Origin: Rhodoluna sp.
GTDB taxonomy: Bacteria > Actinomycetota > Actinomycetes > Actinomycetales > Microbacteriaceae
Assembly: GCF_024639375.1 (NCBI RefSeq)
Contig: NZ_JAHEIM010000005.1
Span: 1-46,751, forward strand
Reading direction: 5' to 3'
Length of the DNA stretch: 46,751 nt
The notes below the pieces were generated by a model. The model made no database searches. It saw only the letters and a program-made list of their open reading frames with translations, and was not told the origin of the DNA. Below, one piece after another: positions 192-25,926 of this stretch. The position numbers and the translations under genes are program-made. Positions within the stretch are counted from its first letter, which is position 1, and each line of letters begins with the position of its first letter.

Positions 192-1469
192 TTATCCCTT
201 CCAACTCCAACGTGGATCAACCTCTGAGTACGCGTTCTCGCCATGCAAGGTGTTGTCGACTCCAGCAATTTCATCGGTGCTGGTCACTCTAAATCCGATG
301 GTTTTTTGAATACCCCAGCCGATGGCATAAGAGATTACGAAGGCGTAGACCAACACTGCGGTGGCACCAATTAGCTGCTTCAGTAACTGATCGCCACCAA
401 AACCAAATAGCAATCCAACGTTGTCACCAAGCAAGCCAATGTATAGCGTGCCCACAATGCCACCCACCAGGTGAATGCCAACCACGTCTAGTGAGTCATC
501 GAAGCCCCAGCGATATTTGAGTTCAATCGCCATGGCACAAACCACACCAACGATTAGGCCCAGCAGCAGCGCCCAAATCGGCTCCAAATATGCACAGGAT
601 GGCGTAATCGCCACGAGGCCTGCGATGGCTCCAGAGCCGGCGCCTACCGAGGTTGGCTTGCCGTGAACGAGCTTCTCGTAGACGACCCAACTGATCATCG
701 CGCCAACCGGAGCAGCGAGAGTGTTGATGAACGCAAGCGAGGCAATGCCATCCGCGGCAAGTTCAGAACCCGCGTTAAAGCCGAACCAACCAAACCAAAG
801 AATTGCTGCGCCAATAAGTGTGAGCGGCACATTATGTGGAGCGTGCATTCCCTTGGTAAAACCAAAGCGTTTGCCGAGCACAAGGGCCAGGGCCAAAGCA
901 GAGGCGCCAGAGGCAATTTCAACCACGGTTCCGCCAGCAAAATCGAGCACGCCAACTTCGTGAACCAACCAACCACCGGCAACAATTTTTCCATTTACAA
1001 CTTGAAAGTTAAAGACCCAACTGGCCACTGGAAAATAAACCAACGTCGCCCAAATCGCAGCAAAAATCATCCATGATCCGAAACGAGCGCGGTCTGCAAT
1101 TGCACCTGAAATCAGCGCCACGGTGATGACCGCAAAAGTTCCTTGGAATCCGGCAAAAGCGAGACCGAAGCCATCCCCAGCTTTAGCGAGTGCAACCACA
1201 TCGGTTAGGAACAACTTGTTTAGATCGATGCCAACCACGCCATCAATACCTAAGAAATTTCCTTGACCCGATGAGTGAAACGTCATGGCATAACCAAAGA
1301 CAACCCACATCATGCCAACTAGGCCGAGTGAACCGAAACTCATCATCATCATTGATACGACGCTTGACGCACGCACCAAGCCGCCATAAAAAAACGCCAA
1401 ACCCGGCGTCATAAAGAGAACTAACGCCGAGCAGATGATTAAGAACATCGTGGTGTTTTGATGAACCAT
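192..1469 (-). CDS. amt: Ammonium transporter (Amt family), paralogue with Glu at the first twin-His position
   Basis: A 425-residue Amt/Mep/Rh channel that should conduct ammonium across the cytoplasmic membrane. The ATG at 1469 is chosen over one nine codons upstream because GAAAGG lies six bases before it. Family landmarks include the N-terminal TPGLAFFYGGLVR stretch, WFGWFGFNAGSE near residues 225-236 and FDDSLDVVGIHLVGG near 323-337. The pore twin-histidine pair is altered: the first position reads GGTVVEIASG with Glu184, while His333 is retained. Glu at this site is known in fungal Mep1/Mep3. The gene follows a second amt by 74 bases and is probably co-transcribed. No glnK or glnD follows, unlike in many actinobacterial amt operons. 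Confidence 0.95.
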   Translation of the reverse strand: MVHQNTTMFLIICSALVLFMTPGLAFFYGGLVRASSVVSMMMMSFGSLGLVGMMWVVFGYAMTFHSSGQGNFLGIDGVVGIDLNKLFLTDVVALAKAGDGFGLAFAGFQGTFAVITVALISGAIADRARFGSWMIFAAIWATLVYFPVASWVFNFQVVNGKIVAGGWLVHEVGVLDFAGGTVVEIASGASALALALVLGKRFGFTKGMHAPHNVPLTLIGAAILWFGWFGFNAGSELAADGIASLAFINTLAAPVGAMISWVVYEKLVHGKPTSVGAGSGAIAGLVAITPSCAYLEPIWALLLGLIVGVVCAMAIELKYRWGFDDSLDVVGIHLVGGIVGTLYIGLLGDNVGLLFGFGGDQLLKQLIGATAVLVYAFVISYAIGWGIQKTIGFRVTSTDEIAGVDNTLHGENAYSEVDPRWSWKG

Positions 1470-1498
1470 GAATTGCCTTTCTTTTGAACGCACCAAAA

Positions 1499-1522
1499 GG
1501 AGAGGCCCTTACGGACCTCTCC
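1499..1522 (-). terminator. Hairpin between the two amt genes, possible weak terminator
   Basis: GGAGAGG (1499-1505) pairs with CCTCTCC (1516-1522) around a short loop. On the minus strand the stem is followed by only TTTTGG, so it may terminate partly, lowering expression of the second amt, or protect the mRNA 3' end. Confidence 0.35.
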
Positions 1523-1543
1523 CCTTGGCTAATACTTTTTTAG

Positions 1544-2812
1544 TTAGCCGCGGTCTGCACCGAATGCATAAGCCTCTTCACCGTGAACTACGGTGTCGAT
1601 GCCTGCAATTTCGTCTTGAGCCTTGACTCGGAATCCAATTGTCTTTTCAACAATGAAACCAATGATCAAAGCCATTACGAAGCTGTAAACCAGAACCGCA
1701 ACTGCACCAAGTGCCTGCATTGCGAATTGGTGCCAGCCGAAACCAAACGCTGCACCCACACCGTTTCCGAAGATACCGATGTAAAGGGTTCCAACGATTC
1801 CACCAACTAGGTGGATGCCAACTACGTCAAGTGAGTCATCGAAGCCAAGTGCAAACTTCAAGTCAATCGCAAGTGCACACAACATACCGGCAACAAGGCC
1901 AAGCACGATTGCCCAAACTGGATCTAGTGACGCACAGGCTGGGGTAATCGCTACCAAACCAGCTACGGCACCAGAACCGGCACCAATTGAAGTTGCCTTG
2001 CCGTGCTTGATCTTCTCAACCAGAATCCAACCGAGCATCGCTGCTGCAGGTGCGGCCAGCGTGTTGATGAACGCGATTGACGCAATGCCATCAGCTGCAA
2101 GTTCTGAACCCGCGTTGAAGCCGAACCAACCGAACCAAAGCAGTGCAACACCTAGCAAAGTAAGTGGCACGTTGTGAGGCTGGGTGATGCCCTTGCTGAA
2201 GCCGAAGCGCTTGCCAAGAACAATAGCTAGAGCTAGACCCGCGGCACCTGCGTTGATGTGAACCGCGGTTCCACCAGCGAAGTCGATAACGCCAAGGCCG
2301 TAAACGATCCAGCCGCCATCGACAACTTTGCCGTCGGCAAGGGTGAAGTTGAACACCCAGTTTGCAACCGGGAAGTAAACGATGGTTGCCCAGAGGCCTG
2401 CGAAAACCATCCAGCCGCCAAACTTGGCACGGTCTGCGATAGCACCCGAAATAAGAGCCACGGTGATGATTGCGAATGTGGCCTGGAAGGCTACGAACGC
2501 CATGGTTGGGAACGCACCGGCCGGAGCTGCTGCATCGGCCACCTGAGCCGAAAGGCCTAGGAAGGACGTATCGATACCGAACCAGCCATCGACTCCAACG
2601 AAGGTGGATGTGCCACCGTTTGAGAATGAAATGGCATAGCCGTAGAGCACCCAAAGCACTGCGATTAGACCGAGTGATCCGAAGCTGAGCATCATCATGC
2701 TGACAACGCTCTTGGCCTTAACCATTCCTCCATAGAAGAATGCAAGGCCGGGGGTCATTAGCAACACAAGGGCTGCTGAAATTAGAACAAAGGCGGTGTT
2801 TCCCTGATCCAT
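1544..2812 (-). CDS. amt: Ammonium transporter (Amt family)
   Basis: A 422-residue Amt channel for ammonium uptake in the inner membrane. It starts MDQGNTAFVLISAAL, has TPGLAFFYGGMV at residues 20-31, and keeps both pore histidines: His185 in GGTAVHINAG and His334 in VVGIHLVGG. It is therefore the canonical member of the tandem pair and closely resembles the downstream paralogue across the core. GAGAGAGG precedes the ATG. The promoter region (2813-2940) carries a GlnR-like operator, and the leader can fold so that the ribosome site is paired (2821-2872), both consistent with nitrogen control. Confidence 0.96.
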   Translation of the reverse strand: MDQGNTAFVLISAALVLLMTPGLAFFYGGMVKAKSVVSMMMLSFGSLGLIAVLWVLYGYAISFSNGGTSTFVGVDGWFGIDTSFLGLSAQVADAAAPAGAFPTMAFVAFQATFAIITVALISGAIADRAKFGGWMVFAGLWATIVYFPVANWVFNFTLADGKVVDGGWIVYGLGVIDFAGGTAVHINAGAAGLALAIVLGKRFGFSKGITQPHNVPLTLLGVALLWFGWFGFNAGSELAADGIASIAFINTLAAPAAAMLGWILVEKIKHGKATSIGAGSGAVAGLVAITPACASLDPVWAIVLGLVAGMLCALAIDLKFALGFDDSLDVVGIHLVGGIVGTLYIGIFGNGVGAAFGFGWHQFAMQALGAVAVLVYSFVMALIIGFIVEKTIGFRVKAQDEIAGIDTVVHGEEAYAFGADRG

Positions 2813-19844: not shown

Positions 19845-21926
19845 TTAAGCGTCGATTCGATCGCGCTCAAGGCCATCGGCCGAATCAATGATGAAGTCAC
19901 GGCGCGGAGCAACTTCGTTGCCCATCAAAAGTTCAAACACTGCCTCTGCCGCAGCGGCATCTTCAACTCGCACACGACGCAGCGTGCGGTGGCTGCGATC
20001 CATAGTGGTTTCTGCCAACTGATCGGCATCCATCTCACCAAGACCCTTGTAACGCTGAATTGGCTCTTTATAACGCTTGCCGGCTTTTTCAAGTTTCTTC
20101 AACAGCTCTTCGAGTTCAGCTTGGCTATAGGTATAAATCACTTCATTTGCCTTGCTGCCGGCATTGATAACTTCAACGCGGTGTAGCGGTGGAACGGCAG
20201 CGAAAACTCGGCCAGCCTCAACCAGAGGGCGCATGTACCTGAAGAACAGGGTTAGCAGCAGAGTTCGAATGTGTGCGCCATCAACATCGGCATCGCTCAT
20301 CAAAATCACTTTGCCATAGCGAGCAGATTCGAGATCAAAAGATCTTCCCGAACCGGCACCAAGAACCTGAATGATTGACGCACATTCAGAGTTAGAAAGC
20401 ATGTCGCTGACCGAAGCCTTCTGCACGTTTAAGATTTTTCCGCGGATAGGCAACAGCGCCTGGAACTCTGAGTTGCGAGCAAGTTTTGCAGTGCCCAGCG
20501 CAGAGTCACCCTCAACAATAAAGAGCTCTGAGCTGGCGGTATCTTGAGTTCGACAGTCAACCAACTTGGTTGGCAGTGAACTGCTTTCGAGCGCATTCTT
20601 GCGACGCTGAGTTTCTTTGTGAGCTCGCGCAGAAACACGAGATTTCATTTCGGCAACTACTTTTTCAAGAAGTAGCGAAGCTTGAGTCTTGTCATCACGC
20701 TTTGTGCTGCCGAAGCGATCGTTTAGAGCCTTGGTGACAACGTTGGCAACAATATTGCGAACTGCTGGGGTGCCAAGAATCTCCTTGGTCTGACCTTCAA
20801 ACTGAGGTTCGGCTAGACGAACTGTTACAATCGCCGTCAAGCCAGCAAGAATGTCTTCTTTTTCAATCTTGTCGTTGCCAAGTTTGAGTTTGCGGGCCTG
20901 GGCATCTACCTGTGCGCGAATGGTTTTCAACAATGCTTGTTCGAAGCCTGAGATGTGGGTTCCACCCTTAGGCGTTGCAATGATGTTCACAAAAGACTTG
21001 ATCTCGGTGTCATAGCCGGTGCCCCAGCGAACGGCAATTTCAACTTCGCAATTGCGTTCAACTTCTTTAGAAACCATGTTGCCCGACTCATCGAGCACTG
21101 GCACGGTCTCTAGAAAGTTAGCCGAACCAGCAAGACGCCAAGTTGAAGTGAGCGCAGAATCTTTTGCCAAGAAGTTTGCAAACTCAACAATGCCACCATC
21201 AAATTTGAATTCTTGTTTAACCGGCTGCTTTTCACGCAGATCACTAATTGAAAGCGCCAGGCCCGGCACCAAGAAAGCAGTTTGTCGTGCACGAGCAACA
21301 AGTTCATCAAGAGAGAAAACTGCATCCTTGATGAAAATCTGAGGGTCGGCCCAGTAGCGCACTCGAGTGCCCGATGCATTCTTGGCTACCTTGCCAATTT
21401 CTCGAAGCACCGACGCATCTTCAAAAGGCTTAAACGGGTTGTTTGGTGCAATACCTTTTTTGTCATCGAACACACCAGGCTCACCGCGTCTGAACGACAT
21501 TGCATAGGTCTTGCCGTTGCGATCAACTTCAACATCTAGGCGTTCTGAAAGAGCATTCACCACGGATGCGCCAACGCCGTGCAAACCACCCGAAGCTGCA
21601 TATGAACCCGAACCAAACTTTCCACCGGCGTGCAACTTGGTGAAAACCACTTCAACGCCTGATAGGCCCGTTTTAGGCTCAATGTCCACTGGAATTCCGC
21701 GAGCCTTGTCGGCTACGGAAACGCTGCCATCTTGGTACAGCTCAATTTCAATGCGATTTCCGTGTCCGGCCAAAGCTTCATCCACCGAGTTATCGATGAT
21801 TTCCCAAAGGCAGTGCATCAATCCGCGGCTATCGGTTGAACCGATATACATGCCCGGGCGCTTGCGAACAGCCTCGAGCCCCTCTAGAACAGAGAGATGG
21901 CGGGCGGAGTATTCAGACTGGGACAC
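19845..21926 (-). CDS. parE: DNA topoisomerase IV subunit B
   Basis: A 693-residue ATPase subunit of topoisomerase IV, partner of ParC. The GHKL ATPase motifs are EIIDNSVDEALAG and GGLHGVGASVVNALS, and the TOPRIM motifs are FIVEGDSALGTAK and SDADVDGAHI. Also visible is QRYKGLGEMDADQLAETTMD near the C-terminus. Translation starts with GTG at 21926, exactly six bases after a TAGCAT -10 box, so the mRNA is probably leaderless. It faces parC tail to tail with 16 bases between, so the two subunits are made from separate promoters. Confidence 0.95.
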   Translation of the reverse strand: MSQSEYSARHLSVLEGLEAVRKRPGMYIGSTDSRGLMHCLWEIIDNSVDEALAGHGNRIEIELYQDGSVSVADKARGIPVDIEPKTGLSGVEVVFTKLHAGGKFGSGSYAASGGLHGVGASVVNALSERLDVEVDRNGKTYAMSFRRGEPGVFDDKKGIAPNNPFKPFEDASVLREIGKVAKNASGTRVRYWADPQIFIKDAVFSLDELVARARQTAFLVPGLALSISDLREKQPVKQEFKFDGGIVEFANFLAKDSALTSTWRLAGSANFLETVPVLDESGNMVSKEVERNCEVEIAVRWGTGYDTEIKSFVNIIATPKGGTHISGFEQALLKTIRAQVDAQARKLKLGNDKIEKEDILAGLTAIVTVRLAEPQFEGQTKEILGTPAVRNIVANVVTKALNDRFGSTKRDDKTQASLLLEKVVAEMKSRVSARAHKETQRRKNALESSSLPTKLVDCRTQDTASSELFIVEGDSALGTAKLARNSEFQALLPIRGKILNVQKASVSDMLSNSECASIIQVLGAGSGRSFDLESARYGKVILMSDADVDGAHIRTLLLTLFFRYMRPLVEAGRVFAAVPPLHRVEVINAGSKANEVIYTYSQAELEELLKKLEKAGKRYKEPIQRYKGLGEMDADQLAETTMDRSHRTLRRVRVEDAAAAEAVFELLMGNEVAPRRDFIIDSADGLERDRIDA

Positions 21927-22075: not shown

Positions 22076-22300
22076 ATGCAACCACTAGAAGAAACCACCA
22101 CAGAGAACGAAATCACTGAGGTTGGCGCACTCAAGGCAACTGACCGTTGCGACGTTTGCGGTGCACAGGCCTACATTCGCGTTGAGTTGGCAACCGGTGA
22201 ATTGATTTTCTGTTCACACCACGGCAACGAGAAGCGCGCCAAGCTTGAGCCAATTGCAATCTCTTGGCACGACGAGAGCGACAAACTACTCGCTCGCTAG
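22076..22300 (+). CDS. DUF7455 family small zinc-binding protein
   Basis: A 74-residue protein conserved in actinobacteria near sigA and parE. It has a CDVC pair (residues 25-28) and CSHH (46-49), consistent with a single zinc site, and a basic C-terminal segment. The ATG at 22076 is preferred to an in-frame ATG eight codons earlier because GAAAGG lies seven bases before it. The last 15 bases overlap the 3' end of gatD on the other strand. Its terminator lies inside gatD. Function unknown. Confidence 0.88.
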   Translation: MQPLEETTTENEITEVGALKATDRCDVCGAQAYIRVELATGELIFCSHHGNEKRAKLEPIAISWHDESDKLLAR

Positions 22301-22930
22301 ATCTTTCTCTAGCTTCCAAACTTCAGCAACTAAGCCGTCTGCGTAGGCGGCTTTTTTGTTGCTCAAAATCTCGGCATTCATGCCGTGCGCCTGCAATAAA
22401 TCACTCAGGATAGCGTCTGCCAGCTGTGAGTTTTTGGCAAGCACTGGCCCGTGCAGATTGATCGCCAAAATCGAACCGTGGCGAGCAACTACCGGCAGGT
22501 CAGCTTCAGAGTTGAGATAGCCAAGCAATTCGTGGCCTTCAAACTCAACCACTTCAAATTTAGAAACTCGATCTAGCAAATCAAGTTCACCCGAAAGCAA
22601 GCCAACGCCAGCTTCACCGACAGCGGTTTGTTCAAATAGCATTTCGTAGCCGGTTGCAATTGCAAGAAGCTTCACGCCTCGACTAATGAATGATTCCAAC
22701 TCACTTTTACGCGCAATCAAATCAGCACGAATTGCGTTCCAAGCGGCAATCGAACCGTGGCCGATGATTATGAAATCGGCATCGGCATCAATTGGTTGAC
22801 CGGCTTCTACAACCTGAATGCTCGAAGGAACACCTGCCCAATCGAGGCGACGACGCAACACCTTGATGTTGGCGAGATCACCATTTAGATTCAGGTGGCC
22901 AGGGTAAAGGACTGCAAATTTAATGCTCAT
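22286..22930 (-). CDS. gatD: GatD-like type 1 amidotransferase homologue lacking the catalytic cysteine
   Basis: A 214-residue protein of the CobB/CobQ-like glutamine amidotransferase family (GatD). Classical GatD hydrolyses glutamine and feeds ammonia to MurT for amidation of D-Glu in lipid II. The family frame is clear: FAVLYPGHLNLNGDLANI at the N-terminus and LHGPVLAKN with His160. However, the nucleophile loop reads LLAIATGYEML, where families have AICGGY, so the Cys is Ala92, and the whole protein contains no cysteine. The usual GGGQD-type turn is GHGSIAAW. Glutaminase activity is therefore not expected. The start overlaps the murT stop (ATGA). It may have become a structural partner of MurT. 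Confidence 0.85.
   Translation of the reverse strand: MSIKFAVLYPGHLNLNGDLANIKVLRRRLDWAGVPSSIQVVEAGQPIDADADFIIIGHGSIAAWNAIRADLIARKSELESFISRGVKLLAIATGYEMLFEQTAVGEAGVGLLSGELDLLDRVSKFEVVEFEGHELLGYLNSEADLPVVARHGSILAINLHGPVLAKNSQLADAILSDLLQAHGMNAEILSNKKAAYADGLVAEVWKLEKDLASE
22333..22357 (+). terminator. Intrinsic terminator of the DUF7455 gene, inside gatD
   Basis: AGCCGTCT-GCGT-AGGCGGCT forms an eight-base-pair stem (one G-U) followed directly by a run of six T. Flanking GCAAC and GTTGC can extend the pairing. It lies 33 bases after the DUF7455 stop and within the coding sequence of the convergent gatD. Confidence 0.8.
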
Positions 22931-24195
22931 CGCTCTACCGCCTCTGGGTCAGTGAAGCCAAGCATTCTTCGAGTGCGGCGCATGGCATCCGCAGAAAAAA
23001 TCACAGTTCTAATTGAATTGGTTGGCGCCGGCAGAGCAAAGAATTTATCTAGTGCGGTCTGCAAATCTTCTTCAATGTCATCCATCGGAATATTGTCGTA
23101 AGCCAGTCGCAAAGCAATCTCGGCAAAGTTATAACCGGCTACCACATCCACGCGCTTGATCGCCGACATGTCAACTGTCCACAGCCATGAAGGATCGTGT
23201 ACATCGCGGCCAATTGCAACCATCAGCCGTTCTGGCTGACCAACTAGGTTGTCTAGGTTCAACTGCATGCTCATTGGGTTTTGCACCAAGATGAATTCAA
23301 CGTCTTCGCCATTTACCTTGGCAATCTCGCCTCGGGCAAAAACGGGTGGCAACTCATCCAAAGTCTTTGCGGCAAGTTGAGCGTCGAACATATCGCCCAA
23401 ATAACGCCTTGCGCTTTCGAGTGCAGCTGAGGCATCTAATGCAAAGTGCACTCCGCGGTTTGGCAGCGCAAAATTCACCGGATAGTTGCCAACTCGACCA
23501 CTCGCCTGCTTGCCATTCAAGCGATCAATTTGAGTGTCTGCTTGAGGGCGAGGCAACACGGCCTGATAAGTAGGTGCATTGCCAAGGCCATGCTTTGAAG
23601 CTGAGATGAGCGCGCCTTCTAAACCAAACCAAGAAGTTTTAGAGCTTTGCACTTCTTTGTTGATAAGCAGAATGTTTTGGTCGTCGGCATTCAAGATCAA
23701 AGCGCCGGTGCAGCGCTGCGCAACATCACGAAGTTTTTCACGCACCACAGCTGGGTCAATGAATCGATCGAGTTGATCTTCAAGCACATTCAGAATGGTC
23801 ACCTGTCGTGGTGAAACTCGCTTAGTGATTTCGGCGGCGTGCCCTTCGTCCATTTCAAGAATCGCTACATCGCCCTTCAGATTTCCGAAGGCATCCGAGC
23901 TCTGAATTATCGAGGAGAAAAAACCTTGTTCGATGTTTGCAGTAGAAGGGTTGGTGAAAACCTCTTTGCCATGTGCGCGCGCAATGGCAACCAGCATCTT
24001 GGTGGTGGTTGACTTGCCAGCCGAGCCGGTGACGATTACTAAACCATCGGCAAAATGTGCCAAGGTTTTTGCCAGCAAGCCTGGCGCAATCTTTGACAAC
24101 ACCAAACCTGGCAAGGCAGAGCCTCCACCGGGCCTAACCACTCGAACCAGCTTGCGAACAATTCGGCCAATAAGAATGGCTGGCAGATAGAACAT
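22927..24195 (-). CDS. murT: MurT-like Mur ligase family protein without the zinc ribbon
   Basis: A 422-residue Mur ligase homologue of the MurT type. MurT activates the alpha-carboxyl of D-Glu in the peptidoglycan stem with ATP, and GatD supplies ammonia. Visible are an N-terminal hydrophobic stretch, the P-loop IVTGSAGKSTTTKML (about 53-67), ILEMDEGH, ILNVLEDQLDRF, NADDQN and the C-terminal DUF1727-like domain with PSWLWTVDMSAIKRVDVVAGY. Characterised MurT proteins carry a four-cysteine ribbon in the middle domain; here the corresponding region (about 195-235) has no Cys, and the protein has only one. The gene starts three bases after the sigA stop and overlaps gatD. Confidence 0.87.
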   Translation of the reverse strand: MFYLPAILIGRIVRKLVRVVRPGGGSALPGLVLSKIAPGLLAKTLAHFADGLVIVTGSAGKSTTTKMLVAIARAHGKEVFTNPSTANIEQGFFSSIIQSSDAFGNLKGDVAILEMDEGHAAEITKRVSPRQVTILNVLEDQLDRFIDPAVVREKLRDVAQRCTGALILNADDQNILLINKEVQSSKTSWFGLEGALISASKHGLGNAPTYQAVLPRPQADTQIDRLNGKQASGRVGNYPVNFALPNRGVHFALDASAALESARRYLGDMFDAQLAAKTLDELPPVFARGEIAKVNGEDVEFILVQNPMSMQLNLDNLVGQPERLMVAIGRDVHDPSWLWTVDMSAIKRVDVVAGYNFAEIALRLAYDNIPMDDIEEDLQTALDKFFALPAPTNSIRTVIFSADAMRRTRRMLGFTDPEAVER

Positions 24196-24198
24196 GAA

Positions 24199-25926
24199 CT
24201 AGTTCTCTAGATAGTCGCGCAGCATCTGTGAACGTGAAGGGTGACGAAGCTTTGACATGGTCTTTGATTCGATCTGTCGAATGCGCTCGCGGGTCACGCC
24301 AAACTCTTCTCCAATTTGGTCGAGAGTCTTTTGCACGCCGTCACCCAAACCAAAGCGGCTGCGAATAACGCCAGCTTCGCGTGGGTGCAATGAATCTAGG
24401 ATGCGCTCAAGCTCACGCTGCAGCATGGTGAAACCAACTGCGTCAGCAGGAACAACTGCTTCGGTGTCTTCAATCAAGTCACCGAACTCGCTGTCGCCAT
24501 CTTCACCAAGCGGTGTTGAAAGTGAGATTGGTTCGCGGCCGTACTTCTGAACTTCAACAACCTTTTCAGGTGTCATGTCTAGTTCACGAGCAAGCTCTTC
24601 TGGGGTCGGTTCGCGACCAAGATCTTGAAGCAACTGACGCTGCACACGAGCGAGTTTGTTAATAACTTCAACCATGTGAACGGGAATACGGATGGTACGA
24701 GCCTGGTCTGCCATTGCGCGGGTAATTGCCTGGCGAATCCACCAGGTTGCATAAGTCGAGAACTTGTAGCCCTTGGTGTAGTCGAACTTTTCAACCGCAC
24801 GAATTAGACCAAGGTTTCCCTCTTGAATCAAGTCAAGAAACTGCATTCCGCGACCGGTGTAGCGCTTTGCCAACGAAACAACCAAACGAAGGTTGGCTTC
24901 TAGCAAGTGACTCTTGGCGCGCTGGCCGTCTTTTACAACCCACTTCAGGTCGCGTTCCATTTCTTTTGAAATGCGCTTGTCGGTGGCAAGTTTTTCTTCA
25001 GCAAATAGACCAGCTTCGATGCGCTTTGCCAACTCAACTTCGAGCTCTGCGTTTAGCAACGCAACCTTACCGATTTGCTTTAGGTAGTCCTTAACCGGGT
25101 CAGCGGTTGCACCGGTGATGGTGGTTGACTGCGCCGGGATGTCCTCTTCTTCACGGTTTGACAAAACCAAGGCGCCTTCAGGCACAACAATTTTGTCTCC
25201 GTCTTCAGGCTCTTCTTCAGGAAGTTCTTCTTCAACAGCTGTGATGTCAACCAGGGCCGCTGCCTCAGCAACGATCTCTTCTGGCGATTCAAGCTCTAGT
25301 TCTTCATCGTCTTCGTCATCTGCCAAACCCTTTGGCAACTTTGAAGCCTTCTCTGGCTTGGCTTTTGCAGCCGGGCCGGCAGACTTTGCTGCAGCTTTGG
25401 TTGCAGTCTTGGTGGCTGGTTTGGCCGCAGCCTTGGCAACTGGCTTAGCCGCAGCCTTCGCGGCCGGTTTTGCATCAGCCTTAGCAACAGGTTTAGCTGC
25501 CGCTTTGGCGGCAGGCTTAGCGGCTGGTTTGGCCGCAGCCTTGGCAACTGGCTTAGCCGCAGCCTTGGCAACTGGCTTAGCCGCAACCTTAGCCGGAGCC
25601 TTTGCAACTGGCTTGGCTAGGGTCTTGGTGGCTGGCTTCGCAGCCGGCTTTGCGGCAGGTTTAGCCGCAGCCTTGGCAACAGGCTTAGCTGCAGGCTTTG
25701 ACGCGGCCTTCACTGCTGTCTTGGCAACAGGCTTGGCGGCAGCTTTTGCAGGGGCTTTTGCCACTGGCTTTGAAATTTTAGGGGCTGGGGCAGCCGATTT
25801 TGCTGGTGTTGAAATTTTCTTGGGTTCCTTACTTGCTTTAGTTTTGTCCCCCGAAGACTTTTCATTAGAGCGCAACAGTGCACCCAAGAAGCCACGCTTC
25901 TTGCCGGTTGCCTGTTCTTTAGCCAT
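24199..25926 (-). CDS. sigA: Principal RNA polymerase sigma factor SigA (RpoD/HrdB)
   Basis: A 575-residue housekeeping sigma factor. Region 1.2 starts near [11 protein letters not shown] (about 276). Region 2 contains [17 protein letters not shown] and [18 protein letters not shown]. Region 4 has [20 protein letters not shown] and the C-terminal [14 protein letters not shown]. Before these lies a basic Lys-Pro-Ala repeat tail (about 41-190), like a histone H1 tail, and an acidic stretch (202-262). Actinobacterial SigA often has an extended N-terminus, but this one is long and highly repetitive. AGAGGA lies four bases before the ATG. It heads the sigA-murT-gatD run. Confidence 0.98.
25357..25776 (-). 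repeat. Degenerate tandem repeat encoding the SigA Lys/Pro/Ala tail
   Basis: Short units encoding variants of KPVAK and KPAAK recur over about 420 bases. The DNA copies (GGCTTAGCCGCAGCCTTGG and relatives on the plus strand) are nearly identical in places, so slippage or recombination could change the length. It is coding sequence, not a CRISPR array. Confidence 0.8.

Follow-up and report, generated by a model that had tools for sequence, protein, structure and literature searches.

A Cys-less GatD homologue behind sigA in Microbacteriaceae and its putative role, with MurT, in amino-acid ligation to D-Glu

In a Rhodoluna sp. genome, a 46,751-nucleotide stretch of DNA (the window) bears, behind sigA, a murT gene followed by an intact gatD-like gene whose product, termed PsiGatD, lacks the catalytic Cys of GatD. 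Judging from sequence comparisons, this gene is a conserved member of a Cys-less MurT-GatD lineage found across Microbacteriaceae. The loss of the Cys in many members of this family, together with the retention of the protein beside a ligase, suggests that the pair attaches an amino acid instead of ammonia. Our reading, to which we assign a probability of about 0.6, is that MurT-PsiGatD forms an amide bond between the alpha-carboxyl of D-Glu and an amino acid, which is probably the D-diamino acid found in group B cross-bridges. The traits pointing this way are the disappearance of the nucleophile together with residues of the ammonia passage, the conservation of the ligase residues, purifying selection where it could be measured, the fixed place of the pair, and its alternation with a gene whose product resembles CofE (coenzyme F420-0:gamma-glutamyl ligase).

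The gatD-like gene of the window and its surroundings

The gatD-like gene (positions 22286–22930, minus strand) begins with an ATG and encodes a 214-residue protein that is free of Cys. The nucleophile loop reads LLAIATGYE (AIATGY), and both the sequence and the alignments place Ala92 (codon at 22655–22657, minus strand) at the site of the catalytic Cys, which is C94 in S. aureus and C107 in S. pneumoniae; the roles of the residues at this site have been described for both proteins (PMC6085368, PMC6113224). A GHGSIAAW turn (22739–22762, minus strand) is found where the alignments lead one to expect GGGQDSGQ, and the His loop, LHGPVLAKN, retains its His (His160, codon at 22451–22453, minus strand). 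At the sites known in S. pneumoniae as plug Tyr30 of GatD and gate Arg135 of MurT, the window proteins have Asn and Glu, respectively. The ligase residues of MurT, namely Asn85, Asp112, Glu113, the P-loop Lys and the triad Asp, are all present. An AlphaFold model of the window GatD had a mean pLDDT of 91.7 (18 sequences), and its best structural matches in Foldseek searches were the GatDs of S. aureus (6gs2, 5n9m), S. pyogenes and S. pneumoniae. The family profiles were less generous: in Pfam, GATase_3 fell just under its cut-off (25.6 of 27 bits), and the NCBIfam equivalogs NF045636, NF052463, NF045635 and NF052464 scored 40.3 of 400, 51.6 of 450, 85.2 of 800 and 84.9 of 800 bits, none reaching its cut-off. 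For MurT, the Pfam domains Mur_ligase_M and MurT_C were both above theirs.

The murT gene (22927–24195, minus strand) encodes a Mur ligase of 422 residues without Zn-ribbon cysteines, whose ATP-binding loop, GSAGKSTTT, is specified at 24001–24027 (minus strand). Its stop overlaps the gatD start by 4 bases, and 3 bases separate it from sigA (24199–25926), the three genes all lying on the minus strand. According to the locus annotation, the far side of the place occupied by the pair (hereafter the slot) is marked by a gyrB/parE-type topoisomerase gene (19845–21926, minus strand); it is behind sigA that the pair, or a CofE-like replacement of it, is placed in Microbacteriaceae. Other features of the window were a long N-terminal tail of SigA, rich in Lys-Ala-Pro repeats, two tandem ammonium transporter genes (192–2812, minus strand), and a plus-strand frame of 74 residues (22076–22300) with a CDVCG motif, which overlaps the 3′-end of gatD by 15 bases from the opposite side.

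The genome from which the window comes (1.29 Mb, 93.85% complete) gave a single MurT_C match and four GATase_3 matches, the other three having no blastp match to the window GatD. A second, canonical MurT-GatD pair, which would have spoken against the original prediction of a repurposed pair, was looked for in this 93.85% complete genome and not found. Profile searches of the same genome returned no CofE-like protein. As candidates for a source of D-amino acids it showed one Ala_racemase_C protein and two DAP-epimerase half-matches within one open frame, which weighs somewhat against a D-amino acid as donor.

Loss of the nucleophile and of ammonia-passage residues

GatD profile matches were obtained in 313 of 398 Microbacteriaceae genomes, representing 75 of 85 genera, and part of these were read residue by residue. 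The family was taken to be Microbacteriaceae, two of the stretches retrieved from it having DNA in common with records named Pseudolysinimonas yzui and Microbacteriaceae bacterium. The comparison comprised 178 distinct MurT-GatD pairs, mostly from Microbacteriaceae (208 before 30 identical ones were dropped). The nucleophile Cys was missing in all 124 pairs located behind sigA, so that the Cys-less intact GatD noted in the window was confirmed and proved to be a trait wider than the window. None of the 43 Cys-bearing pairs was seen behind sigA (25 were not linked to it, and in 18 the linkage was not visible). The remaining Cys-less pairs were three with no sigA upstream even where the locus reached that far (L110, L155 and L308) and eight in which the linkage was not visible. 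Outside the family, the Cys of GatD was retained in 47 of 47 sequences read from nine other families of the order (loci L332–L377 and L379; L358 was read by eye). Within the genus of the window, the Cys column was without Cys in all 29 loci compared (L007–L035). A Cys occurred elsewhere in the nucleophile loop in 5 of the 135 Cys-less pairs (e.g. AVGSCYE in L030).

It had been anticipated that a Cys-bearing GatD in close relatives with the same wall type would count against a repurposed pair. This was encountered in part: some Microbacteriaceae do own one, either with an empty sigA slot, as in Leucobacter, or alongside a Cys-less copy, but in none of those read was it seen behind sigA. Several loci depart from the common arrangement. 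In L308 and L110 no sigA was found near the Cys-less pair, L308 being in Amnibacterium setariae a second copy besides the sigA-linked L316; in Naasia lichenicola (L211), murT lies behind sigA and the Cys-less gatD about 7 kb further down. One genus (g106) has members both with and without a GatD match. The Naasia arrangement and the uneven presence in g106 count against our reading.

The recurrence of the loss in the 124 sigA-linked pairs rules out a sequencing error as the cause of the missing Cys. Gene decay is not favoured either, as the original prediction had held: in comparisons of close Cys-less relatives the dN/dS of GatD was 0.02–0.29 in 9 of 20 cases (the other 11 gave no value), the absence of the Cys recurs across loci, and, among the loci read, the frames were intact apart from a single broken copy. 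The latter (L380, genome G371) has gatD split into two frames behind an intact murT, through either mutation or sequencing error. Another reading is that PsiGatD is a relic, MurT working alone or on another substrate and PsiGatD persisting only by its coupling to MurT folding. The lower identity to the window proteins of GatD (29–46%) than of MurT (52–74%) across L007–L035 would fit this, as would the absence of the catalytic His from part of the Cys-less GatDs and the disrupted gatD of G371. However, dN/dS values well below 1 in the nine comparisons that gave one, the high confidence of the predicted fold, and the conservation of a Gly after the His site in 135 of 135 Cys-less GatDs and of an Asn in 134 of 135 make a relic improbable.

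The pairs fall into three classes: Cys pairs (n = 43), Cys-less pairs whose MurT is Zn-less (n = 123), and Cys-less pairs with a Zn-type MurT, i.e. one with CxxC (n = 12). The nucleophile column of the Zn-less class contained Gly (73), Ala (28), Ser (16), Asn (4) or Thr (2), and that of the Zn-type class (loci L149–L158, L187 and L217) His (9, e.g. FLFTHNALE), Gly (2) or Gln (1). The plug Tyr30 of GatD, which in S. pneumoniae closes the ammonia passage (PMC6085368), was Tyr in 43/43 Cys pairs, 0/123 Zn-less pairs (Asn in 102) and 0/12 Zn-type pairs. The catalytic His was found in 43/43, 89/123 and 0/12 of these classes, respectively; the claim that the His loop is kept thus stands for the window and fails for 34 of the 123 Zn-less and all 12 Zn-type pairs. 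The gate Arg135 of MurT was present in 43/43 Cys pairs, 1/120 readable Zn-less pairs and 10/12 Zn-type pairs. The equivalent of MurT Asp349, the triad Asp, was present in 123/123 Zn-less pairs and gone from 12/12 Zn-type pairs. On the ligase side, MurT Asn85, the P-loop Lys and the hinge Arg were retained in all readable rows, Glu113 in 119/119 Zn-less and 12/12 Zn-type rows, and Asp112-Glu113 in all but two rows (both Zn-type, with Ala at Asp112). The glutamine-hydrolysis centre and parts of the ammonia passage thus decayed, by different routes in the two Cys-less classes, and the apparatus for carboxyl activation stayed. Parts of the old machinery are still constrained, which counts against the ligase reading, since the triad Asp, the GatD His (89/123) and the Zn-type gate Arg (10/12) persist.

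Whether the Cys was lost once or twice was approached with MurT trees of 102 and 65 rows, which drew on part of the 178 pairs. A quick tree split the Cys-less pairs into two clades in different halves, one Zn-less (47 rows) and one Zn-type (12 rows), but gave a long-branch warning, and an AU test on a reduced set did not reject a single Cys-less clade (P = 0.27). Two independent losses were therefore dropped as a firm claim, and we speak of one or two origins.

Loss of the nucleophile need not abolish amidation. In S. aureus, the GatD variants C94S and C94G were reported to lose glutamine-dependent amidation (PMC6113224, PMC3266927); with C94G, ammonia-dependent amidation at pH 8.5 was unaffected, and GatD was still required for amidation with ammonia (PMC3266927, PMC6085368). 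These observations are the strongest precedent for a pair that still amidates, using free ammonia or that released by another glutaminase, with PsiGatD only stabilising MurT. The amidated D-Glu reported in Clavibacter muropeptides (PMC9603630) and the tandem ammonium transporter genes of the window would also agree with it; amidated D-Glu had been named beforehand as a result that would tell against a repurposed pair. Nevertheless, the S. aureus enzyme was reported not to use ammonia at neutral pH (PMC3266927), the plug Tyr is gone from 135/135 Cys-less pairs and the gate Arg from 119/120 readable Zn-less ones, the alpha-carboxyl that would be amidated carries the bridge in group B walls, and a recurrent swap with a CofE-like ligase (see below) ill suits an amidating enzyme. 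We consider continued amidation unlikely, if less so than a relic.

Exchange of the pair with a CofE-like ligase

The content of the slot was recorded for 126 distinct loci of Microbacteriaceae type (129 before duplicate removal), a locus being counted as holding the pair if it had a MurT or GatD match. Of these, 78 held MurT or PsiGatD, 26 a CofE-like gene, one both, 20 neither, and one was unreadable; part of the loci had been chosen for being without the pair (L161–L192 were picked because their genomes had no GatD or MurT match, or only a Cys copy), and such inclusive counts are not prevalences. A sample unbiased with respect to the pair was provided by 80 named loci retrieved with SigA alone as the query (the best 80 of 576 matches). 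Forty-seven were counted as family-type, including three (L233, L234 and L243) whose titles say otherwise or less; 27 of them held MurT or PsiGatD, 17 the CofE-like gene, three neither and none both. The other 33 of these best 80 had neither pair nor CofE-like gene in the stretch covered. The pair was found in Amnibacterium, Naasia, Rathayibacter, Cryobacterium, Leifsonia, Glaciihabitans, Herbiconiux, Agreia, Pseudoclavibacter, Okibacterium, Microcella putealis, Pontimonas, Agromyces, Curtobacterium, Ruicaihuangia, Gulosibacter and some less well named records; the CofE-like gene in 12 of 12 named Microbacterium loci, Salinibacterium, Pseudolysinimonas, Microcella alkaliphila, a record labelled Stenotrophomonas and one MAG; and neither in Leucobacter (two of two named loci) and one MAG. 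The record labelled Stenotrophomonas (L233, titled Stenotrophomonas maltophilia P13) has a sigA region of Microbacteriaceae type and is either mislabelled or mixed.

Eleven of the 12 named Microbacterium were searched as whole genomes and gave no GatD profile match, which tempers the published description of murT-gatD as universal in Actinobacteria (PMC6085368). The CofE-like profile matched 12 of 80 genomes (one per genus); the Rhodoluna genome of the window was among the 80 and gave no match. In fifteen of the one-per-genus genomes the slot was empty and the CofE-like profile found nothing: nine of them carried a canonical Cys pair elsewhere, and a tenth (G116) had a match, the GatD of its genus-mate G392 having the Cys. 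One genus (loci L153, L155 and L330) bears a CofE-like gene together with a Zn-type MurT and a Cys-less GatD; no other such case was encountered, and this one speaks against a strict alternation.

On a quick tree of the adjoining topoisomerase (96 rows), the state of the slot, pair or CofE-like, changed at least 11 times by parsimony, and strongly supported branches alone forced seven changes of the CofE label. Microcella putealis (pair) and M. alkaliphila (CofE-like) adjoin on this tree with opposite states. Functional equivalents would be expected to replace each other repeatedly at a single site and to keep their partners, which is the pattern seen.

The CofE-like slot protein matched PF01996 (2.6e-12). 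Its model (pLDDT 80.4, 12 sequences) had as its best Foldseek match 2phn, an amide-bond-forming F420 ligase (E 2.6e-8, probability 1.00, query TM 0.60), and all five PDB matches with E < 0.001 were CofE. With the CofE equivalog TIGR01916 the Microbacterium protein reached 29.4 bits, short of the cut-off of 180.65, and going by this profile it is not an F420 enzyme. Since CofE couples an amino acid to a carboxylate, a reaction common to the two occupants of the slot would more likely be amino-acid ligation than amidation.

The pair and the CofE-like gene have optional neighbours in common: two genes of alanine-racemase type (PF01168, PF00842) and an ATP-grasp gene (ATPgrasp_ST, PF14397). These show association, not function. 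The split alanine-racemase-like pair was seen in the slot in L232 (11935–13763), L216 (12158–13944) and 41 other loci. By regular expression, the PLP Lys motif was detected in 36 of 43 copies of one protein, seven giving no motif match, and SYGxxY in none of the 43. In the second protein Lys never stood at that motif (0 of 41; 12 gave no motif match), and SYGxxY occurred in 29 of 41. From these motifs, the two proteins look as if they formed one active site. In L230 (10895–12487) and L186, a gene for the lipid II flippase MurJ lies inside the slot, in both cases with CofE-like and ATP-grasp genes.

Wall types, the proposed reaction and known systems

Group B peptidoglycan is cross-linked through D-Glu, with the bridge on its alpha-carboxyl. 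Glycine is present in many group B walls, and the cross-bridges of Microbacterium contain it; Leucobacter also has a group B wall. The wall reported for Rhodoluna lacicola, a Microbacteriaceae member with a small genome, is of type B2beta/B10 and yielded D-Ala-D-Dab and Gly-D-Glu fragments (PMC4156110); for Clavibacter, a D-diaminobutyrate bridge with glycine at stem position 1 has been described (PMC9603630). A table of wall types gives diaminobutyrate and B2gamma for Cryobacterium, diaminobutyrate and B10 for Glaciihabitans, and Lys/Orn and B for Salinibacterium (PMC7033078). Loci named Cryobacterium or Glaciihabitans (L213, L226, L217 and L225) carry the pair. In the few genera compared, the presence of the pair fits group B walls in Cryobacterium and Glaciihabitans (genus-level data) and, by analogy, in Rhodoluna; the slot of Leucobacter is empty. 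The pair cannot be the sole solution for group B walls, because in Leucobacter and some further genera nothing occupies the slot, and either a canonical Cys pair lies elsewhere or none was found; if the walls of the genera with an empty slot and a Cys pair are of group B, another solution must exist in them.

The original prediction had MurT ligating an amino acid, for example glycine, to the alpha-carboxyl. The idea of an amino-acid ligase gains from the absence of a glutaminase centre, the selection seen where measurable, the intact ligase site of MurT, and the alternation with a CofE-like gene beside racemase and ATP-grasp genes; the choice of glycine as the donor fared badly. If glycine were what the pair adds, at the start of a bridge that contains it, the chemistry would be identical to that proposed here, and the occurrence of glycine in many group B walls would suit it. 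However, Microbacterium, with its glycine bridge, holds the CofE-like gene in all 12 named loci and gave no GatD match in the 11 genomes searched whole. In Rhodoluna and Clavibacter, near which the pair-bearing lineages lie, the reported bridge contains D-diaminobutyrate, and glycine is at stem position 1 (PMC4156110, PMC9603630). Glycine as the donor is thus a poor candidate, and a D-diamino acid the more likely one.

Under amino-acid ligation by the pair, MurT and the Cys-less GatD would form a heterodimeric amide ligase. MurT would use ATP to activate the D-Glu alpha-carboxyl of the wall precursor, as it does when lipid II is amidated. The acceptor amine is predicted to be that of an amino acid and not ammonia; the bridge's own D-diamino acid in group B walls (e.g. 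D-diaminobutyrate) is the most likely candidate. PsiGatD would no longer hydrolyse glutamine; its putative role is that of a subunit completing MurT, perhaps binding or guiding the amino acid. In a simple model, the pair or the CofE-like protein would load the first bridge residue in the predicted product, the split racemase would supply its D form, and the ATP-grasp protein would add a second residue to bridges that have one. It is an even bet whether the sigA slot as a whole is a group B cross-bridge locus of this kind, in which unrelated ligases (MurT-PsiGatD, of one or two origins, and the CofE-like protein) were repeatedly swapped, with split racemase and ATP-grasp modules for the first and second bridge residues, and in which a glutamine amidotransferase became an amino-acid ligase by losing its glutaminase centre. 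A literature search (titles and abstract openings; open-licence papers) found no assignment for the enzyme that loads D-Glu in group B walls. Should the reading be correct, two unrelated candidate enzymes could be named for this step, which would become testable, and an example would be at hand of a glutamine amidotransferase turned amino-acid ligase.

Three known systems invite comparison. With the MurT-GatD lipid II isoglutaminyl synthase of S. aureus and S. pneumoniae, the window pair shares the arrangement of two adjacent genes, the ATP site of a Mur ligase, the GatD fold and the HGP loop, and the best PDB matches of the window GatD are 6gs2, 5n9m, 6h5e, 9sq9/9sqj and 6fqb. Unlike that synthase, it has no nucleophile Cys and no Zn-ribbon cysteines, Asn replaces the plug Tyr, Glu the gate Arg and GHGS the GGGQD turn, and its GatD stays far under the NCBIfam cut-offs. 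CofE differs in fold from MurT-GatD, yet in other genera the place behind sigA is taken by one of its relatives, accompanied by the same partner genes. The ligases MurC-F, which belong to the same superfamily as MurT, form an ATP-dependent amide bond to an amino acid, the reaction proposed here; unlike them, MurT is truncated in its N-terminal part (PMC6113224) and works with a GatD subunit.
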